Part shown: positions 5,982 through 14,873 of the stretch, one piece after another
How the letters are laid out: each line of letters starts with the position of its first letter
Position numbering within the stretch: the first letter of the stretch is position 1
From: an uncultured Bryobacteraceae bacterium
GTDB taxonomy: Bacteria; Acidobacteriota; Terriglobia; Bryobacterales; Bryobacteraceae
Assembly: GCA_937920635.1 (NCBI GenBank)
Contig: CAKZUE010000006.1
Location: forward strand, 1 to 64,000
DNA length: 64,000 bases
Direction: 5' to 3'
Made by a program: the position numbers and the translations under genes
Notes under the pieces: generated by a model
What the model was told of the DNA's origin: nothing
The model's database searches: none
What the model saw: the letters and a program-made list of their open reading frames with translations, nothing else

Positions 5982-7223
5982 TTGGCACGCAGGGTGGTTG
6001 TCACCGGTGTCGGCGTCATATCGGCGCTTGGCCTGAACGCTGCGGAGACCTGGCAGGGGATCCTCGAGTCCCGATGCGGAATCGGCCCGATCACGCAGTT
6101 CGACTGCGAGAAGTTCTCTTGCCGCATTGCTGCCGAGGTGAAGGGTTTTGACCCGCTTCAGTTCTTCGAAAAGAAGGAGCTGAAGAAAGTCGGCCGTTTC
6201 ATCCAGTTCGCCGTCGCCGCCTCGCAGGAAGCGATGGAGTCCAGCGGGCTCCAGGTGACGCCGGACATCGCCGAGAGGGTGGGAGTCTATATCGGCAGCG
6301 GCATCGGCGCGTTCGAAGTCATTGAGCGGGAGCACCGCACCCTGCTCGAGAAGGGTCCGGACCGCATCAGCCCGTTCTTCATCCCGGCTTCGATCGTGAA
6401 CCTGGCGTCGGGCAACGTCAGCATCCGCACGGGCGCAAAGGGCCCCAATTCCGCCACCGCCACCGCCTGCACCACCAGCGCCCACTGCATCGGCGATTCG
6501 TTCCGCCTCATCCAGCACGGCTACGCCGACGTGATGATCTGCGGCGGCGCGGAAGCCTGCATCACGCCCATGGGCGTGGGCGGCTTTGCCGCCATGCGCG
6601 CGCTGTCGACGCGCAACGACGAACCGGCCCGGGCGTCGCGGCCATGGGACAAGGACCGCGACGGCTTCGTCGTCGGGGAAGGCGCGGGCATCCTCATTCT
6701 GGAAGAGCTGGAATTCGCCCGCAGCCGCGGGGCGTCCATCCTGGCTGAAGTGGCGGGCTACGGCATGAGCGGCGACGCCTATCACATCACCGCCCCCTCG
6801 GAAGACGGCGACGGGGCTTACCGCGTCATGCGCAACGCCATGCAGGACGCCGGCATCGGACCGGAACAGATCGACTACGTCAACGCCCACGGCACGTCCA
6901 CGCCGGTGGGTGACATCATCGAGTGCAAAGCCCTGAAGCGCGTCTTCGGCGAGCACGCCGCGAAGGTCGCCGTCAGCTCCACCAAGTCGATGACCGGCCA
7001 TGTCCTCGGCGGCGCCGGCGGGCTCGAGGCGGCGCTCACGGTGTTCGCCATCCGCGACCAGATCGCTCCGCCGACCATCAACCTGGACCACCCCGACGAG
7101 GAGTGCGATCTCGACTTCGTGCCCCACAAGGCGCGGCGCCAGAAGATCGAGTACGCGCTGTCGAACTCGTTCGGCTTCGGCGGGACCAACGGCAGCCTGA
7201 TCTTCAAGCGGTACTCGGAATAG
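5982..7223 (+). CDS. fabF: Beta-ketoacyl-ACP synthase II
   Basis: 413 residues, TTG start with AGGAGA 6 bases upstream. It condenses malonyl-ACP with acyl-ACP in fatty acid elongation. The catalytic triad Cys163 (ATACTTSAHC), His303 (NAHGTSTPVGD) and His340 (KSMTGHVLGGAGG) falls at the same residue numbers as in E. coli FabF. Length is normal. It is co-directional with acpP and probably shares its promoter. Confidence 0.97.
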   Translation: MARRVVVTGVGVISALGLNAAETWQGILESRCGIGPITQFDCEKFSCRIAAEVKGFDPLQFFEKKELKKVGRFIQFAVAASQEAMESSGLQVTPDIAERVGVYIGSGIGAFEVIEREHRTLLEKGPDRISPFFIPASIVNLASGNVSIRTGAKGPNSATATACTTSAHCIGDSFRLIQHGYADVMICGGAEACITPMGVGGFAAMRALSTRNDEPARASRPWDKDRDGFVVGEGAGILILEELEFARSRGASILAEVAGYGMSGDAYHITAPSEDGDGAYRVMRNAMQDAGIGPEQIDYVNAHGTSTPVGDIIECKALKRVFGEHAAKVAVSSTKSMTGHVLGGAGGLEAALTVFAIRDQIAPPTINLDHPDEECDLDFVPHKARRQKIEYALSNSFGFGGTNGSLIFKRYSE

Positions 7224-7279
7224 CCGCGCGGTTTTGCAGCCGCAGGCAGGCCGGCTCCGGCCGGCGGGAGTCGTGATTG

Positions 7280-8050
7280 ATGAAGATCCTTGTCGCTCTC
7301 AAACAGGTGCCGGCGCGGGACCTCCCCGTGGAGGCGGATGCCGCCCGCGCCTGGATCGACGAATCCTCGCTCAGCCATGAGATGAACGAGCCGGACGCCT
7401 ACGCCCTGGAGGCGGCGCTGCAACTGAAGGAGTCTTCCGGCGGAGAAGTGGTTGCCGTATCCGCCGGTCAGGCGCGCGTGCAATCCGCCCTGCGCGAAGC
7501 GCTCGCCAAGGGCGCCGACCGGGCCATTCATATCCAGGTGGAAGGCGAAGCGGCTCGGGGCACGGACCCGTCCATCACGGCGAAGCTGCTGGAGGCGGCG
7601 GTCCGCGAGGAGCAGCCGCAGCTCGTGCTCACCGGGCTGCAATCGGATGACACGGGGAGCGGACAGACCGGCGTGATTCTGGCCGCACGGCTCGGCTGGC
7701 CGCACGCGACGCTGGTCGTCGCCATCGAACCCGGTCCGGACTCCGTGCGTGTCAAGCGAGAACTGGAAGCCGGATGGTTCCAGCACGTCACCCTTCCCCT
7801 GCCCGCCGTGCTCACCATCCAGAGCGGCATCAGCCGCCTCCGCTACGCGACGCTCATGGGCATCAAGCGGGCCAAGACGAAGGAGATCCGTCTGATGGAG
7901 CCCCCTGCGGACGCCGTGGGCGGAGGGCTGCGGCTCACTGGACTTGCCGAGCCCCGCCGCCAACGGCAGACGCAGTTCCTGGAAGGCTCTCCAGCCGAAC
8001 AGGCGGCGCAACTGGTGGAGAAACTCCGTTTCGAGGCGCGCGTGCTATGA
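7280..8050 (+). CDS. etfB: Electron transfer flavoprotein, beta subunit
   Basis: 256 residues. With EtfA it forms a soluble FAD/AMP heterodimer that takes electrons from acyl-CoA and other dehydrogenases. The N-terminus MKILVALKQVP, the stretch DAYALEAALQL, and the central LVLTGLQSDDTGSGQTG followed by the ETF-beta signature region (about residues 155-200) identify it. ATG 7280 is preferred over TTG 7277; the ribosome site is GGCGGGAG at 7263-7270. Its stop overlaps the etfA start as ATGA. It follows fabF by 56 bases. Confidence 0.93.
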   Translation: MKILVALKQVPARDLPVEADAARAWIDESSLSHEMNEPDAYALEAALQLKESSGGEVVAVSAGQARVQSALREALAKGADRAIHIQVEGEAARGTDPSITAKLLEAAVREEQPQLVLTGLQSDDTGSGQTGVILAARLGWPHATLVVAIEPGPDSVRVKRELEAGWFQHVTLPLPAVLTIQSGISRLRYATLMGIKRAKTKEIRLMEPPADAVGGGLRLTGLAEPRRQRQTQFLEGSPAEQAAQLVEKLRFEARVL

Positions 8051-9018
8051 GCGGGATTCTGGCGGTTCTGGAGCGCCAGTCCGGCGGCTGGCACAAGATG
8101 TCGTTTGAAGCGCTGGCCGGCGCGCTGGAACTGGGCCGCGCCACGGGCCTCGAGGTTTTCGCGTGCGTGCCCGGCTGCGGCGCGGGCGAGGCGGCGGCGG
8201 AAGCTTCTGTGGCAGGGGTGGCCGGCGTGACCATCCTCGAGCACGAGGCGCTGGAGGCTTACACGGCAGACGCCTGGGTGGAGGCGCTCGCGGAATGGAT
8301 CGCGGAGCTCCAGCCGGACTACGTTCTGTTTCCGCACACCTACCAGACCCGCGACTTTGCTCCCGCCCTGGCGGCGCGGTTCGGCCGCACGTTGATGGCC
8401 GACTCCACGGGCTTTTCGATGGAAGGCGGCGTGCCGGTGTTCGAAAGGCCCCTGTTTCAGGGCAAACATATCGGCCGATTCGTGTTGGAAACGCCTGCGC
8501 CAAACTTTGTTTCTTTTCAGGCCGGAGCGTTCCGCGCCGTCCCGCCCGGCGGCGGCGCTGCGCCGGCCGCCGTGCGGCGGCCCGCCCTGGATCCGGCCCG
8601 CATCCGCCAGCGGCCCGAGCCGCCGTTCCGCGAGACGGCGCAGGCGGTGGATCTTTCCGCCGCCGAGCGCATCGTTGCCGTGGGCCGCGGGATTCAGGAC
8701 GAAGGCAACCTGGAACTGGCCCGCCAGCTCGCGGCCGCCCTCGGGGCCGAGCTCGCCGCCTCCCGTCCGATCATCGACAATGGCTGGCTCCCGGCGGACC
8801 GCCAGGTGGGCAGCTCCGGCCAGACGGTTGCGCCCAGGCTCTATGTCGCCCTCGGCATCTCCGGCGCCATCCAGCACATCGTCGGCATGAAAGGGGCGGG
8901 GTGCATCGTCGCCATCAACCGCGACCCCAAAGCGCCGATCTTCGAGATCGCCGATTACGCTCTGGTCGGCGACCTTTTCGAGATCACGCCAGCCCTGCTC
9001 GACGCCCTTTCATCCTGA
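8047..9018 (+). CDS. etfA: Electron transfer flavoprotein, alpha subunit
   Basis: 323 residues. The ATG overlaps the etfB stop by 4 bases (translational coupling). The C-terminal FAD-binding domain shows the hallmark [20 protein letters not shown], then [18 protein letters not shown] and [14 protein letters not shown] (about residues 255-312). The N-terminal half is the ETF alpha/beta-type Rossmann-like domain. No etf:ubiquinone oxidoreductase gene is in the window. A hairpin follows immediately (9019-9055). Confidence 0.94.
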
Positions 9019-9055
9019 CGAAAAAAGGGGACAGGAACACAATACCCCTTTTTCG
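9019..9055 (+). terminator. Hairpin after etfA, GGGGACAG-containing
   Basis: CGAAAAAAGGGG (9019-9030) pairs with CCCCTTTTTCG (9045-9055) with one bulged A; the 14-base loop contains ACAGGAACACAATA. It begins directly at the etfA stop codon and is A-rich on one arm and T-rich on the other, so it could terminate in either direction. It also contains the GGGGACAG string seen in other intergenic palindromes of this window. Confidence 0.55.
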
Positions 9056-9204
9056 GCCGCAACGCCCGGAGTGCGGCGCCATTCCCAGAAGTCCTGAAAA
9101 GCCGCCGGCGGAAAGACCGGAGAACAGACGGAGAACCGTGGAGCAGGATTTTTGCCCTATGCAAGAAAACGAAAGTCCTGCCATAAAATGGGTGACTATT
9201 TTCT

Positions 9205-9234
9205 TTGCATTCTGCGGTGCAAACAGCTTATAAA
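9205..9234 (+). promoter_or_regulatory. Promoter for the unknown gene at 9425
   Basis: TTGCAT (9205-9210), 18-base spacer, TATAAA (9229-9234). Predicted start near 9241 gives an unusually long leader of about 184 bases. Within the leader, GGGAGGCCCGC (9289-9299) can pair with GCGGGCTCCC (9310-9319) with one bulge. The leader ends in an AGGAGGAAGG ribosome site before ATG 9425. Confidence 0.55.
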
Positions 9235-9424
9235 TAGCCATTACCGTTTTCGGCGCGCTGGGAATTCTGCGCGGACCGCGTAACAACAGGGAGGCCCGCG
9301 AGGGGCAAGGCGGGCTCCCGCAGCGGAGGACCTCCGCGCGCGAAGCTGCGCCCGAAGCATGGATAAATCGTCCACGGCCCGGGCGCCGGCGCACGGCAGG
9401 CGGCCTTTCAGGAGGAAGGAAATT

Positions 9425-9817
9425 ATGGCAAGCGTAGTCAACCCACGGCTGAATATCACCGTGGATTCCGCGAAAAAGACGGCAAGGTGCGTGGTGACAT
9501 GCGAAGTCGTTTTCACCGCGTATGAGATGAACGAGATGAAGGAAGGTCTGAAATTCGTGCTCCATTGCTCGCTGTGGGGCGAGGATCTGGGCATGTGGCT
9601 CAACCCGGACGACTTTCTCTACAGCTACGGCAGCAAGATCTTCCCTGACGCCACGCCAACGGCGCGGGAGAAGGCGACCTTCGACGTCACGGTCGGGGTG
9701 AGCCTGCTGGACGAGGACTGGGGCACGGACGAAGTTTACGGACTGCTGACGCTGCACAACCTCTACACGGGCGCCAAGACGAAGCGCAAGACGAACGTCG
9801 TCGTGCGCAATTTCTGA
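9425..9817 (+). CDS. Unknown 130-residue beta-rich protein
   Basis: Not recognised. ATG 9425 follows an almost perfect ribosome site (AGGAGGAAGG). The protein has no signal peptide or membrane segment. It alternates hydrophobic and polar residues in a way that suggests an all-beta domain (NPRLNITVDSAKKTARCVVT near the start; ATFDVTVGVSLLDEDW in the middle; a basic end TKRKTNVVVRNF). Two early cysteines (CVVTC, about residues 20-24) and one later (LHCSLWGEDL) are present. It stands alone with its own promoter, long structured leader and terminator, which suggests strong, independently controlled expression. Possible readings are a structural or binding protein; function is unknown. Confidence 0.75.
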   Translation: MASVVNPRLNITVDSAKKTARCVVTCEVVFTAYEMNEMKEGLKFVLHCSLWGEDLGMWLNPDDFLYSYGSKIFPDATPTAREKATFDVTVGVSLLDEDWGTDEVYGLLTLHNLYTGAKTKRKTNVVVRNF

Positions 9818-9902
9818 GCCGCACCGTCAAAAGCAGCCCTGCGGGGCTCGCCATCGGCTGAGACTCCGGCCACCCCAGCCTGGGAGGTCCGGAGACTGTG
9901 TC

Positions 9903-9935
9903 CGGGGCCGCGCCTCTCCCAGGTGAGCGGCCCCG
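9903..9935 (+). terminator. Rho-independent terminator of the 9425 gene
   Basis: CGGGGCCGC (9903-9911) pairs perfectly with GCGGCCCCG (9927-9935) around a 15-base loop and is followed by TTTCATTT. It lies about 85 bases after the stop codon, so the 9425 gene is probably a single-gene transcript. The convergent pheT ends at 10076. Confidence 0.75.
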
Positions 9936-10075
9936 TTTCATTTCCGTTGCGGGCTGAGTATTGAGCGAGCCGATTCTGTTCCGTGCGCGGAGAGCCGCGC
10001 CGGGAACCGCCCGCTCTCGCGGCCTTCCGCCGCTCCGCTCGCGGCACTGAACCGCGCCCGAAGGCCGCGCCGATC

Positions 10076-12421
10076 CTACTGGCGGATACCGAAGCCGGCG
10101 GCCTCCAGGGCGGCGATGATGTTGCGGCGGACCGTGCCCACTTCGTCGCTCGAAAGCGTGTGGTCCGGCGCGCCGAGGGTCACGCGATAAGTAAGGCTCT
10201 GGCGGTCCTCGGGCAGCGGCTTGCCCTGATAAGAGTACAGGTATTGCACGCGCTCGCAGAGCGCGCCGGCGGCGTCACGGATGCGCGCACCGATTTCGGC
10301 GCAATGGACGCGCAGCCCCGCCACCACGGACAGGTCGAACTCGCTCGTGGGGAACCGGCGCAGCGGAACGTACTTTCTGGGCAGGGGGCCGAGCGCGAAA
10401 ATGTCAGCAAGGTCGAGATCGAGAATCGCTGCGCGGCCCTGTTCGACCAGGCGCGGGTGCAGCTCGAACAGGCGTCCGAGCGTTTTGCCGCGCCAGGCGA
10501 TTTCACCGGCGCGGGCGGGGTGCTCATAGGGCCGCGCTTCGGCCGGCCTGGCTTCGCAGCCGGGCAGGAGGCACTCGGCGAGGCGCTTCAGTTCGAACAG
10601 AGCCGCGCTGCCGTCGCCGCGGGTGTAAATGGCCGCCATAAGATGCGGCGCTTCCAGCGGAAGCTGCCGGCCCTCGCGCTTGTGGATCTCGTTGCCGATC
10701 TCGAACAGGCGGAACTCGCCGTAAAAACGCGCGTTGTCGGAAATGTTTTTATGAATCCCCGGCAGCAGGCTCTTGCGCAGGAGCGTCTGCTCGCTGGAAA
10801 TGGGATTGGACACGCGCAGGTGCTCGTCCGGCGTGAAGCCGAAGCGTGCGGCCATCTCCTCGCTGATGAACGAGTAGTTGGAAACCTCGGTGAAGCCCTG
10901 CGCGGCGGCCATCTGGCGCACGGAGTGGTGGAACAGGCGTTCCTCGTTGACCCACGGCCGCCGGACAGGCATCAGCGGCGCCACGGGCGGCACGGTGTCA
11001 TAGCCGACCATGCGCCCGATCTCTTCGAGCAGGTCCTCGCGGATCGAGATGTCCTTGGTGGCGCGCCAGGAGGGGACGCCCACCTGAAACACTTGCGGGC
11101 GAGGCTCCTCGACGCGGAAGGAGAGCGATTCGAGAATCCGGCGCACCTCTTCTTTTCCGATGGGGCGTCCAAGGCGGCGTTCGAGCCACTCGAGGTCGAG
11201 CTCGATTGGAGGAGGCGGCGGCGCCTGGCGCCAGGAGTCCACCAGCCCGCCCGCCAGCCGGATGCCGGGCGAGACGATGCGGAACAGCTCGACGGCGCGC
11301 GCCAGAGCGCGCACGGTGTTCACGGGATCCTGCGCCTTCTCGAAACGCATGGAGGCGTCAGTGCGCAACTTCAAGGCGGCGGAGGTGCGGCGGATGTTGG
11401 CGGGCTCGAAGTTGGCGCTTTCGAGCACGATCCGCGTGGTGGCGGGGCGGATGGCGGAGCCCGCGCCTCCGATGACGCCCGCCAGCGCCACGGCGCCGCG
11501 CTGGTCGGCAATGACGAGATTCGAGGGTGAAAGACGGTAGCTCTCGCCGTTGAGCGCGGCAAACTCCTCGCCCTCCTCTGCCCGGCGCACGATGATCGTA
11601 TTGCCGTGCAGCAGGTCGGCGTCGAAGGCGTGCATCGGCTCGGCGAGTTCGGCCATGACGTAGTTGGTGACGTCGACGATGTTGGAGATTGGATTCAGGC
11701 CGAGGGCCTCGAGCCGCGCCTGAAGCCACAGCGGAGAAGGGCCGACGGTGACGTTTTCGAACACGAGCGCCGAGTAGCGGGGACAGAGTTCGAAGTCGCG
11801 GATATCGACCTGCCAGGCGGGCGCGCCCGAGGGGATGAGGTCTCCGCGCACGGGGTCGGCGAGGCGGAGCGACGTAATGGCGGCGACTTCGCGCGCCATG
11901 CCGAGATGGCCCCACAGATCGGGGCGGTGCGTCAGGCTCTTGTTGTCGACTTCGATGATGTGATCCACAGGGCAGCCGGGCAGCGGCGAGCCGGGCTCGA
12001 CGCCGTCGAGTTCGAGGACGCCCGCGCTGTCGCGGTTGAGGCCGAGTTCGGCGCCGGAGGCGAGCATGCCCTGGCTCTCGACGCCCTGAATCACAACCGA
12101 ACGGATATGTTTTCCGGCGGCGATGGTGACGCCGGGCGGCACGAACGCGGTCAACAGGCCGGGGCGGCAGTTGGGCGCGCCGCAGACGACCGTGCGCGTG
12201 CCGTATTCGGGGCCGGCGTCGACGACGGCTTTCAGGTTGTGCGAGCCCTCCATCGGCTCGGCGGAGAGCACGCGCGCGGCCACCACCGCCTCGAGCCAGG
12301 GGGCGAAGGGCTCCACGCCCTCGCACTCGGCGGTCTTCATGGTGATGAGGCGCGTGAGGTCGCGCGGGCTCAGGTCAAGCCCGGGCACGAGTTCGCGCAG
12401 CCAGTTGCAGGAGAACTTCAC
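10076..12421 (-). CDS. pheT: Phenylalanine-tRNA ligase, beta subunit
   Basis: 781 residues, GTG start with AGAGGTGA upstream. It forms the alpha2-beta2 enzyme with PheS that charges tRNA-Phe; the beta chain carries the editing and tRNA-binding parts. Domains seen in order: N-terminal part with MKFSCNWLRELVPGLDL, an EMAP/OB-type tRNA-binding domain (about 40-150), the B3/B4 editing region with NISNIVDVTNYVMAELAEPMHAFD-like sequence (about 235-265), a B5 domain (about 400-475), the catalytic-like core and a C-terminal anticodon-binding (FDX-ACB) domain (about 690-781, YPLRRFPTSEFDLSVV-like start). It lies 12 bases after pheS. Confidence 0.96.
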   Translation of the reverse strand: MKFSCNWLRELVPGLDLSPRDLTRLITMKTAECEGVEPFAPWLEAVVAARVLSAEPMEGSHNLKAVVDAGPEYGTRTVVCGAPNCRPGLLTAFVPPGVTIAAGKHIRSVVIQGVESQGMLASGAELGLNRDSAGVLELDGVEPGSPLPGCPVDHIIEVDNKSLTHRPDLWGHLGMAREVAAITSLRLADPVRGDLIPSGAPAWQVDIRDFELCPRYSALVFENVTVGPSPLWLQARLEALGLNPISNIVDVTNYVMAELAEPMHAFDADLLHGNTIIVRRAEEGEEFAALNGESYRLSPSNLVIADQRGAVALAGVIGGAGSAIRPATTRIVLESANFEPANIRRTSAALKLRTDASMRFEKAQDPVNTVRALARAVELFRIVSPGIRLAGGLVDSWRQAPPPPPIELDLEWLERRLGRPIGKEEVRRILESLSFRVEEPRPQVFQVGVPSWRATKDISIREDLLEEIGRMVGYDTVPPVAPLMPVRRPWVNEERLFHHSVRQMAAAQGFTEVSNYSFISEEMAARFGFTPDEHLRVSNPISSEQTLLRKSLLPGIHKNISDNARFYGEFRLFEIGNEIHKREGRQLPLEAPHLMAAIYTRGDGSAALFELKRLAECLLPGCEARPAEARPYEHPARAGEIAWRGKTLGRLFELHPRLVEQGRAAILDLDLADIFALGPLPRKYVPLRRFPTSEFDLSVVAGLRVHCAEIGARIRDAAGALCERVQYLYSYQGKPLPEDRQSLTYRVTLGAPDHTLSSDEVGTVRRNIIAALEAAGFGIRQ

Positions 12422-12433
12422 CGCTGGTCACCT

Positions 12434-13456
12434 CTAAAACTGCTCGAGAAAGCGCAGGTCGCCCGACTGAAGCAGGCGGATGTCGTCAATCGCGTAGCGC
12501 ATCATCACCAGGCGTGTCAGCCCCAGCCCAAAGGCGAAGCCGTTCCACTCGCGCGGATCGATGCCGCCCGCGCGAAGGACGTTGGGATGCACCAGCCCGC
12601 AGGGCAGAAGCTCGACCCAGCCGCTCTGCTTGCACACCGGGCAGCCCGAGCCGCCGCACAGCAGGCACTGGATGTCGAGTTCGAAGCCGGGTTCGACGAA
12701 CGGGAAGAAGCCGGGGCGCAGGCGCACCGTGACTTCGCGGCGGAAGATCGCTTCGAGCAGCGTCTTCATGAAATAGAGCATGTGGCCGATGCTGACGTCG
12801 CGGTCGATCATCATGCCTTCGAGCTGATAGAAGGTGTGCTCATGGCTGGCGTCGACTTCCTCATTGCGGAAGACGCGCCCTGGCGCGATGATGCGCAGCG
12901 GCGCGCCGAAGCGCTCCATGGCGCGCACCTGCACGGGAGAAGTGTGCGTGCGCAGCAGGCAGCCGTTTTCGAGCCAGAAAGTATCCTGCGCGTCGCGCGC
13001 CGGATGCGCGGGCGGAATGTTCAGCGCATCGAAGTTGTGCCACTCGGTTTCGACCTCGGGCCCGTCGACCACGGCGAAACCAAGGCTCGTGAAAAGGTCT
13101 TCCAGCTCCTTCTGGATCTGCGTGAGCGGGTGCAGGGCGCCGGGGCGGACGCCGGGCGCGGGGAGCGTGATGTCGAGCCATTCGGCGTCCAGCCGCGCGC
13201 GCAGCGCCTGCTCCTCGAACCAGGTCTGCTTTTTGTCGAACCTCTCCTCCAGCAGTTGCTTGACCGAGTTCAGCAGCTTGCCTGCGCGCGCGCGCTCCTC
13301 GGGCGAGAGCTTGCCGAGATCTTTGCCGATCTGCGCCAGCGCGCCCTTGCGTCCGAGAAACTCGACGCGCGCCCGTTCCAGCGCCGCTGCGTCGGAAGCC
13401 GCTTCGATGGCGGACAGGGCCCGCGCTTCGATATCCGATAGCGTGGAATCCAGCAT
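12434..13456 (-). CDS. pheS: Phenylalanine-tRNA ligase, alpha subunit
   Basis: 340 residues, normal length, ATG start. Catalytic subunit of PheRS. The coiled-coil N-terminal arm (about 1-85) is followed by the class II core: HPLTQIQKELEDLFTSLGF, motif 2 IIAPGRVFRNEEVDASHEHTF, and motif 3 GFAFGLGLTRLVMMRYAIDD. A CLLCGGSGCPVCKQSGW stretch is a four-Cys zinc-site-like insertion found in many bacterial PheS. It is first in the pheS-pheT operon. Confidence 0.97.
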   Translation of the reverse strand: MLDSTLSDIEARALSAIEAASDAAALERARVEFLGRKGALAQIGKDLGKLSPEERARAGKLLNSVKQLLEERFDKKQTWFEEQALRARLDAEWLDITLPAPGVRPGALHPLTQIQKELEDLFTSLGFAVVDGPEVETEWHNFDALNIPPAHPARDAQDTFWLENGCLLRTHTSPVQVRAMERFGAPLRIIAPGRVFRNEEVDASHEHTFYQLEGMMIDRDVSIGHMLYFMKTLLEAIFRREVTVRLRPGFFPFVEPGFELDIQCLLCGGSGCPVCKQSGWVELLPCGLVHPNVLRAGGIDPREWNGFAFGLGLTRLVMMRYAIDDIRLLQSGDLRFLEQF

Positions 13457-13526
13457 TTTCGTGAAATTACCAGTCTAGCAGGGGGCGCCAATCAGGCCGA
13501 TTGCAGCGCGAGGGCTTGCGGAGGCA

Positions 13527-14873
13527 TCACTCGTCGGCGGGGATCTCGAAGCGGATGATGTCGCGGCGGAAGCCGCCGGTTTTCCAGGCGCCATAGGCGA
13601 CGCCGAAAGCGAGCCAGGCGAAGCCGGCGATCTTGGCGATCCAGCTCAGGCTGAGCCAGAGGTAGAGGCAGACGACGAAGCCTGCGGCAGGCGCCACCAG
13701 GTGGCTCCAGTGGCGGTCCCGCTCGCGGATGTAATAGTGAGCCAGGCTGGAGACATTCACGCCCATGAAGCCGATGAGCGCGCCGAAGTTCAGCAGCTCC
13801 GCGCCGGTCTGATAGGAGATGGCGAAGGCGCCGAGCAGGGCGAGGGCGCCCATCAGCAGGACGTTGCGGCTGGGCACGCGCGTCTTCGGATCCAGGTAGC
13901 CGAAGAAGCCCCTGGGGATGGCGTTGTCGCGCCCCATGCCGTACAGCAGCCGCGCGCCGGCCAGCAGCGCGCCGGAGGCGGAGCCGATGGTGGCCACAAC
14001 AAGAGTCCACGAAAGTGTTTGAAACAGAATCTCTCCTCCCGCGCGGCGGGCGACGGCGAGGTAGGCGGTGTCGGGGTCGGGGTACGGTTCTGCGGCGGGC
14101 CAGACGAGCTGCGCCGCGTACACTTCGACGGCCGAAAGCACGCCAATGATGAAGCAGGTGGCCACCATGGCGCGGAGCACGTTGCGGCGCGGGTCTTTCA
14201 CTTCTTCCGACAGCGTGGCGATTCCGTCGTAGCCGATGTAGGTGAGCACGGCGATGGAGGCGCCGTTGGACAGCGAACGCCACGAGAACCGCTCCGGATC
14301 GTAAAACGGCGTGAGGAAGCGCTGCGCGTCCAGCTCGGGCAGGTGCAGAAGATATCGGGCGCAGGCGCCGAGGGTCCATAGGATGACAACGCCCATCACC
14401 GCGGTGAGAACTTCATTGGTGCGCGCGGTGGCGGTGATGCGGCGGAGGTTCAGCACCGTGAACAGGAAGGCGAAGGCGACGGCCCAGAGCGCGAAAGGCG
14501 TGCCGGGGAACAGCCCCATCAGGGCCTTGGAGCACCAGATGACGCAGATGAGCGGGTTCACCATGTAATCGAGCAGCATGCTCCAGCCGGTGAAGTAGCC
14601 GAGCGCCGGGTGCAGCTCGCGGGCGACGTAGGTATAGGCGCTGCCCGCCGCCGGATAGGCGCGCGCCATGCGGCCGTAGCTGACGGCGGTGAGCATCATC
14701 GCGAACATGGCGATGAGCACGGTGGTGACGACATGTCCGTTGGCGCCCGCGCTGATGGCGCCGAAGGGCGGCATCGGGGCGGTGGGCTGGACCATGATGA
14801 CGCCCATCACGATGAGCTGGAACAGGCCGAGGGAGCGCAGCAGGCGCACGGGCTGGGCTGGTGCGGCAGGCAT
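13527..14873 (-). CDS. APC-family amino acid permease
   Basis: 448 residues with about 12 membrane segments. The opening LLRSLGLFQLIVMGVIMVQP, then YPAAGSAYTYVARELHPALG and GYDGIATLSEEVKDPRRNV, are characteristic of APC-superfamily amino acid/polyamine transporters. Start set at ATG 14873; ATG 14912 would add 13 residues and overlap the divergent DUF58 gene. Neither has a good ribosome site. The substrate is not predictable from sequence. It lies 70 bases downstream-facing from pheS and divergent from the DUF58 gene. Confidence 0.88.
   Translation of the reverse strand: MPAAPAQPVRLLRSLGLFQLIVMGVIMVQPTAPMPPFGAISAGANGHVVTTVLIAMFAMMLTAVSYGRMARAYPAAGSAYTYVARELHPALGYFTGWSMLLDYMVNPLICVIWCSKALMGLFPGTPFALWAVAFAFLFTVLNLRRITATARTNEVLTAVMGVVILWTLGACARYLLHLPELDAQRFLTPFYDPERFSWRSLSNGASIAVLTYIGYDGIATLSEEVKDPRRNVLRAMVATCFIIGVLSAVEVYAAQLVWPAAEPYPDPDTAYLAVARRAGGEILFQTLSWTLVVATIGSASGALLAGARLLYGMGRDNAIPRGFFGYLDPKTRVPSRNVLLMGALALLGAFAISYQTGAELLNFGALIGFMGVNVSSLAHYYIRERDRHWSHLVAPAAGFVVCLYLWLSLSWIAKIAGFAWLAFGVAYGAWKTGGFRRDIIRFEIPADE

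Follow-up and report, generated by a model that had tools for sequence, protein, structure and literature searches.

A lone gene for a predicted Ig-like protein with invariant acidic residues and a conserved leader block in an uncultured Bryobacteraceae bacterium

What does a 130-residue protein do whose gene stands by itself, and how is that gene controlled? The question is raised by a locus in the window, a stretch of 64,000 nucleotides from an uncultured Bryobacteraceae bacterium (contig CAKZUE010000006.1 of assembly GCA_937920635.1). A sequence-only reading had described the gene as a lone unit of no recognised family, with a strong promoter, a long leader and a terminator of its own. The locus was compared with its counterpart in G004, a species of the same genus, and with relatives from other phyla.

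The gene, its signals and its place in the genus

The following features were located around the gene:
9027-9052, no strand: one copy of the dispersed repeat GGGGACAGGAACACAATACCCCTTTT, at the point where the synteny common to the window and G004 ends
9204-9223, + strand: inverted repeat TTTGCA-N8-TGCAAA, overlapping the first promoter hexamer and kept in G004 with 5-base arms
9205-9234, + strand: promoter-like site TTGCAT-18-TATAAA, 8 of 12 consensus bases, at chance level
9410-9415, + strand: Shine-Dalgarno sequence AGGAGG, 9 nt 5' of the ATG
9425-9817, + strand: gene for the 130-residue acidic-loop protein of predicted Ig-like fold; open reading frame, with an ortholog 91% identical in G004 and a dN/dS of 0.047
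9903-9935, + strand: terminator hairpin with a 9-bp stem (9903-9911/9927-9935), then TTTCATTT; with a counterpart in G004

The open reading frame lies alone, as had been stated, between a frame that ends at 9018 and one on the opposite strand that ends at 10076; these are presumably etfA and pheT, names taken from reading their translations with no family search. It is single-copy in its own genome (G000), and its start is backed by the aligned starts of the Acetobacteraceae and Fischerella relatives. The ribosome-binding site of the earlier reading is present as well, and the G004 ortholog has AAGGAG at the same spacing. The terminator is the best-supported signal of the unit, and the hairpin is kept, because the G004 stem (12 bp) is rebuilt with other bases and followed by the same GTTTCATT tail. 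A threshold terminator scan omitted the stem at 9903-9935 because its loop exceeds the length allowed by the scan. A separate transcription unit, also proposed earlier, is supported by the terminator kept across two species, the convergent pheT and 0.4 kb of non-coding DNA upstream. A strong promoter is not supported, nor is high expression; the promoter score of 8/12 is at chance level, since an equal or better site turned up in 104 of 200 dinucleotide shuffles of the 406-base region, and a promoter scan around the gene (threshold 9/12) reported no site. The G004 counterpart, TTGCAA-18-TACAAA, keeps the position and spacing with changed hexamers. The overlapping inverted repeat is weak evidence, because six-base inverted repeats number 4 in the region against 1.6 in shuffles. 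A sigma-54 promoter was rejected by eye. The segment 9113-9131, which contains GACCGGAGAACAGACGG, is intergenic, lies upstream of the promoter-like site and is identical in G004.

The gene was found in 2 of 151 genomes (its own and 150 relatives), namely its own genome and G004; G001-G003, of the same genus, gave no match at E up to 0.001. In both species it adjoins pheT. On the side away from pheT the window has etfA, and G004 has a different gene on the opposite strand, which we take by eye to be a glycoside hydrolase. G002 lacks the small gene and has beside pheT a relative of that G004 gene, with 70% identity over 555 residues; by gene order, therefore, either a gain or a loss of the small gene took place between pheT and the gene next to it. 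Between the window gene and its ortholog dN is 0.053 and dS 1.12, and the ratio of 0.047 (pheT, 0.085) indicates strong purifying selection, so that the gene has, on these substitution rates, been kept.

A scattered family with two acidic loops

Searched alone, the protein has no match in Pfam, PHROGs or the PDB sequences (E up to 10 each), nor in NCBIfam or PADLOC (E up to 1 each), the last of these being searched for known anti-phage defence proteins. The PHROGs scan took in this protein only; with PADLOC, four relatives gave one weak match (L019, E 0.05). Pfam at its curated cut-off gave no match for the 18 members scanned and NCBIfam none for 16, and the few Pfam and NCBIfam matches of ten newly found members (E 0.025-0.081) all fall short of the cut-off. 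Against the PDB sequences, an eight-member profile returned nothing at E up to 10 and one actinobacterial member returned five weak photolyase matches with E of at least 0.25. The protein has no match in phages or viral contigs that would indicate a phage origin; one viral-contig motif match (L037) is an unrelated protein of 305 residues. A literature search on accessions, locus tags, motif strings and topic, with subscription journals mostly outside its coverage, found no mention.

Relatives were nevertheless recognised. One from an Acetobacteraceae metagenome-assembled genome (L003) is 67% identical in the best segment and 68% in the alignment, one from Nonomuraea antri (L004) 41% over residues 73-127, and a hypothetical protein of a Fischerella plasmid 33% (E 1e-5). 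A Pseudonocardia plasmid protein (23%) has an E of 0.3 on its own and was placed in the family because of its motif. A profile of six members (A2) detected the family in 2 of 394 genomes, its own source and G281, where it matched a tandem pair (E 1e-5), and in the class of the Acetobacteraceae genome in 1 of 289, again its own source. Searched over Nonomuraea's order, the Streptosporangiales, the eight-member profile (A4) found it in 27 of 345 genomes (source N. antri included; weakest E 0.001); in the order of G281, where it matched 1 of 5 genomes, it found 4 places, all in G281. Judged by these searches, the protein belongs to a family absent from the searched libraries and dispersed among unrelated phyla, both on chromosomes and on plasmids. 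The earlier statement that it is of no recognised family is thus right for all libraries used; it has to be amended in that a family is delimited here and the predicted fold, Ig-like, is a common one. The family has an invariant acidic signature, and the members scanned are without a Pfam or NCBIfam match at the cut-off.

Several observations on the relatives may be added. In G281 two probably secreted members lie in tandem (L035, 1076-2000) with overlapping stop and start (TGATG), and contig C265 of the same genome carries a second pair. In the 24-kb plasmid record NZ_CP053566.1 (L019) the gene occurs twice, with equal scores and a distance of about 12.1 kb between the copies; as this is half the record length, a 12-kb plasmid may be represented there as a dimer. 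The Nonomuraea member is preceded by a frame of 167 residues (L004, 1953-2456), for which Pfam gave nothing at E up to 1 and NCBIfam only a weak, sub-threshold match.

An alignment of 39 sequences was made from 34 of the 40 places in the A4 listings (the other six had no locus) and five others; it covers the window genus, one Acetobacteraceae genome, one cyanobacterium and 35 actinobacterial sequences. Two acidic loops are encoded as follows:
9578-9610, + strand: codons of acidic loop 1 (G52-E53-D54 ... D62); D54 in 39/39 members, D62 in 33/39, G52 in 34/39
9707-9739, + strand: codons of acidic loop 2 (L95-D-E-D-W-G-T-D-E-V-Y105); L95, D98 and D102 in 39/39, E97 in 38/39, E103 in 35/39

D54, L95, D98 and D102 are thus invariant, and the window protein carries both D54 and D62 in its first loop. 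The family motif, GxD...D with L[DN]EDxnDE[VILM][YF] (LDEDWGTDEVY in the window), occurs in its loose second-loop form in all 39 members, 34 of which were drawn with a profile that already contained it. Residue 96 is Asp in 21 members and Asn in 18, for which reason the acidic site would vary or be partial.

The AlphaFold2 model, built on an alignment of the window, L003 and L004 sequences only, has a mean pLDDT of 77.4 and a pTM of 0.72, and predicts an Ig-like beta-sandwich of seven strands in two sheets (A 3-14, B 19-29, C 44-53, D 67-73, E 81-91, F 103-112, G 118-122). The same seven strands were modelled for the Acetobacteraceae protein, in a run with L003 placed first (pLDDT 69.5). The acidic loops lie between strands C and D (54-62) and E and F (95-103), and are among the weakest parts of the model (pLDDT 57 and 66 for residues 51-70, 58 for 91-100; under 50 for residues 54-67 of the Acetobacteraceae protein). 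In the Ig strand order one end of the sandwich carries both the C-D and the E-F loop, so both acidic loops would be found at one pole. The top structural neighbours (Z 9.5-11.1, rmsd 2.5-3.8, 100-116 residues, identity 4-14%) are the second domain of GH2 enzymes and the factor XIII barrel, which we take to be Ig-like sandwich domains; Brr2 and one adhesin domain are also among the rows. Foldseek matches reach an E of about 1e-4 at best and include the luminal domain of TMEM106B and GH3 enzymes, and a viral structure library gave 6 of 889 matches at E up to 0.001, none telling. With these Ig-like/E-set domains the protein has, by model, the seven-strand sandwich in common; it differs from them in being a small stand-alone protein and perhaps also in carrying the LDEDxGxDE motif, and matches at 4-14% identity say nothing of function.

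The members differ in probable location. The highest N-terminal hydropathy over 13 residues (a mean that is no signal-peptide predictor) is 0.2 to 1.4 in the window protein, L003, L018 and L019. Of 34 actinobacterial loci (30 from Nonomuraea's order and 4 from G281), 32 have a stretch of at least 1.7 before the domain, and the other two reach 1.53 and 1.67. The small proteins of Nonomuraea's order, of the same family by profile and motif, are therefore probably secreted, whereas the window protein lacks such a stretch and, showing no sign of an export signal, is probably cytosolic.

The conserved leader block

Two features were recognised in the leader:
9271-9330, + strand: conserved leader block, sharing 93% of its bases with the corresponding leader in G004
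9289-9319, + strand: bulged hairpin GGGAG(g)CCCGC-GAGGGGCAAG-GCGGGCTCCC with a 10-nt loop; read directly, identical in G004

Over 9021-9424 the window and G004 are on average 66% identical. The block, whose limits were set after the alignment had been inspected, reaches its 93% although dS of the gene is about 1.1; identity is 70% on one side (9241-9270) and 49% on the other (9331-9405), and 43-70% in the non-coding DNA between conserved stretches. Within the block 34 nt (9289-9322) are identical without a break, a run found in 1 of 10,000 permutations of the match vector. Identity over at least 10 bases without a break is also seen at 9026-9045 (the dispersed repeat), at 9113-9131 and at 9194-9209, the last at the edge of the TTTGCA-N8-TGCAAA repeat. 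The hairpin alone folds at -19.0 kcal/mol (z -2.0; 12 of 300 shuffles as stable), and its loop is conserved as much as its arms. The arms are unchanged between the two species and hence show no compensatory changes, so that an action of the leader as RNA is something we infer. The whole 190-nt leader is not unusually stable (z = -1.0; 34 of 200 shuffles as stable), and a longer leader stretch of G004 is unremarkable in folding (z +0.3).

Among 201 genomes searched at up to 3 mismatches, G000 and G004 each have a single copy of the 41-base core of the block and the other 199 have none, which rules out a dispersed repeat. A second full copy of the leader was not found in the own genome, where 21 short matches of 16-29 bases have E of at least 0.01. 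A covariance model (R1), built from the two sequences, recovered these at E 1.8e-25 and 1.5e-27 among the 201 genomes; ten further genomes matched with a per-genome E between 0.002 and 0.1, about what chance would give over so many genomes, and the best of these matches (G001, E 0.002) falls within a coding frame. The model has no convincing match in L003, L018, L019 or L004, so the block is not family-wide. A longer reading frame that would include the block was rejected, since the two species space the block and the ATG differently, by a number of bases not divisible by three. A known riboswitch or leader RNA was likewise rejected: no Rfam 15 family reaches its gathering score in the window, and a single 16-bit match in 9000-9960 (9831-9953, far below the threshold of 50) lies outside the leader. 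A degenerate leader pattern had no match in viral contigs.

The suggestion that the leader holds a regulatory element is thus partly borne out by a 60-base block conserved at 93% in two species, but taken as a whole the leader is no more stable than its shuffled versions; likewise, the structure looked for across relatives is present as an identical hairpin in G004, yet the block occurs in only 2 of the 201 genomes. On this comparison a regulatory element is supported, and the block, which may act as a control element, is a concrete target for a regulatory test.

What the block does can be read in more than one way. It may be a DNA site, an operator or the binding site of a chromosome protein, and not an RNA element; this is a serious though tentative alternative, as the block is an inverted repeat free of compensatory changes between the species, and the upstream palindrome (again 4 such repeats against 1.6 expected) might mark a DNA-bound regulator nearby. 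Against it speak the 10-nt loop conserved like the arms, the position of the block downstream of the likely start site, and its occurrence once per genome in two genomes. That the gene is an ordinary hypothetical gene and its leader is conserved merely by recent common ancestry is very improbable; two species only were available for comparison, but their synonymous sites are near saturation (dS 1.1) and the intervening non-coding DNA has diverged far more than the block. A more ambitious idea, a long shot on present evidence, is that the hairpin acts as a new cis-regulatory RNA which, by sensing a divalent cation or its own protein product, controls synthesis of a cytosolic Ca2+-binding Ig-like protein; if true, this would be a bacterial calcium buffer or sensor under RNA feedback control.

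Proposed function and alternatives

The preferred reading, given a probability of about 0.5, is a cytosolic Ig-like module with a two-loop acidic, probably Ca2+-binding pole that would bind a partner in a cation-dependent way, encoded in a unit with a hairpin leader and its own terminator. The monocistronic gene would yield a small cytosolic protein consisting of one Ig-like beta-sandwich, in which the two acidic loops (GxD...D and LDEDxGxDE[VI]Y) at one pole would probably coordinate one or two divalent cations, with Ca2+ the most likely, and the bound cation would order the surface that binds the partner. The transcript would carry the conserved hairpin about 100 nt 5' of the start codon, probably as a cis-acting stability or regulatory element, and the separate unit would set expression and end at its own terminator. 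In C2 domains (PF00168) Asp residues come from two loops, with DxD...D in the second loop and a hydrophobic strand after it. The window protein has the same arrangement, a likeness in possible working only: its spacing is DxDxxxD against DxDxxxxxD in C2 domains, and the strand count of the model differs too. A two-loop divalent-cation pole, analogous to that of C2 domains, is the most likely reading. As a C2 domain by sequence the protein was rejected (no Pfam family at E up to 10), and the C2 fold is not among the 50 structural rows listed, where absence excludes nothing. Bacteria have few intracellular Ca2+-binding proteins, and little is understood about them; a single purified protein would be enough to put the predicted metal site to a direct test.

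The main rival holds that the acids are structural, capping the sandwich or forming salt bridges with no metal, in a plain Ig-like binding or adaptor module. It fits the Asn found for D96 in 18 of 39 members, the general knowledge that Ig-like folds are mostly binding modules, and the fact that neither the protein nor the eight-member profile found a relative of solved structure by sequence; it is nonetheless the less likely reading, since three Asp residues invariant in 39 of 39 members, in two loops that the modelled strand order puts at the same pole, have the usual look of a cation site. Less probable still is that a mobile element brought the gene along as a passenger, patchily distributed cargo with signals of its own. 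Its presence in 2 of 151 genomes, the relatives on two plasmids and the dispersed repeat at the break of synteny would suit such an origin, but no transposase or integrase was recognised by eye in the open reading frames of window positions 6000-14000 or of the G004 surroundings, the place beside pheT is the same in both species, and the dN/dS of 0.047 points to a kept function.

The palindromic dispersed repeat at 9027 has 82 copies in G000, 45 in G004, 1 in G003 and none in G001 or G002 (up to 3 mismatches), and resembles a REP-type or mini-element of recent spread. The repeat, GGGGACAGGAACACAATNCCCCTTTT, also occurs in L013 at 8549-8574 and 10374-10399, and several of its copies form inverted pairs about 170-310 bases apart.
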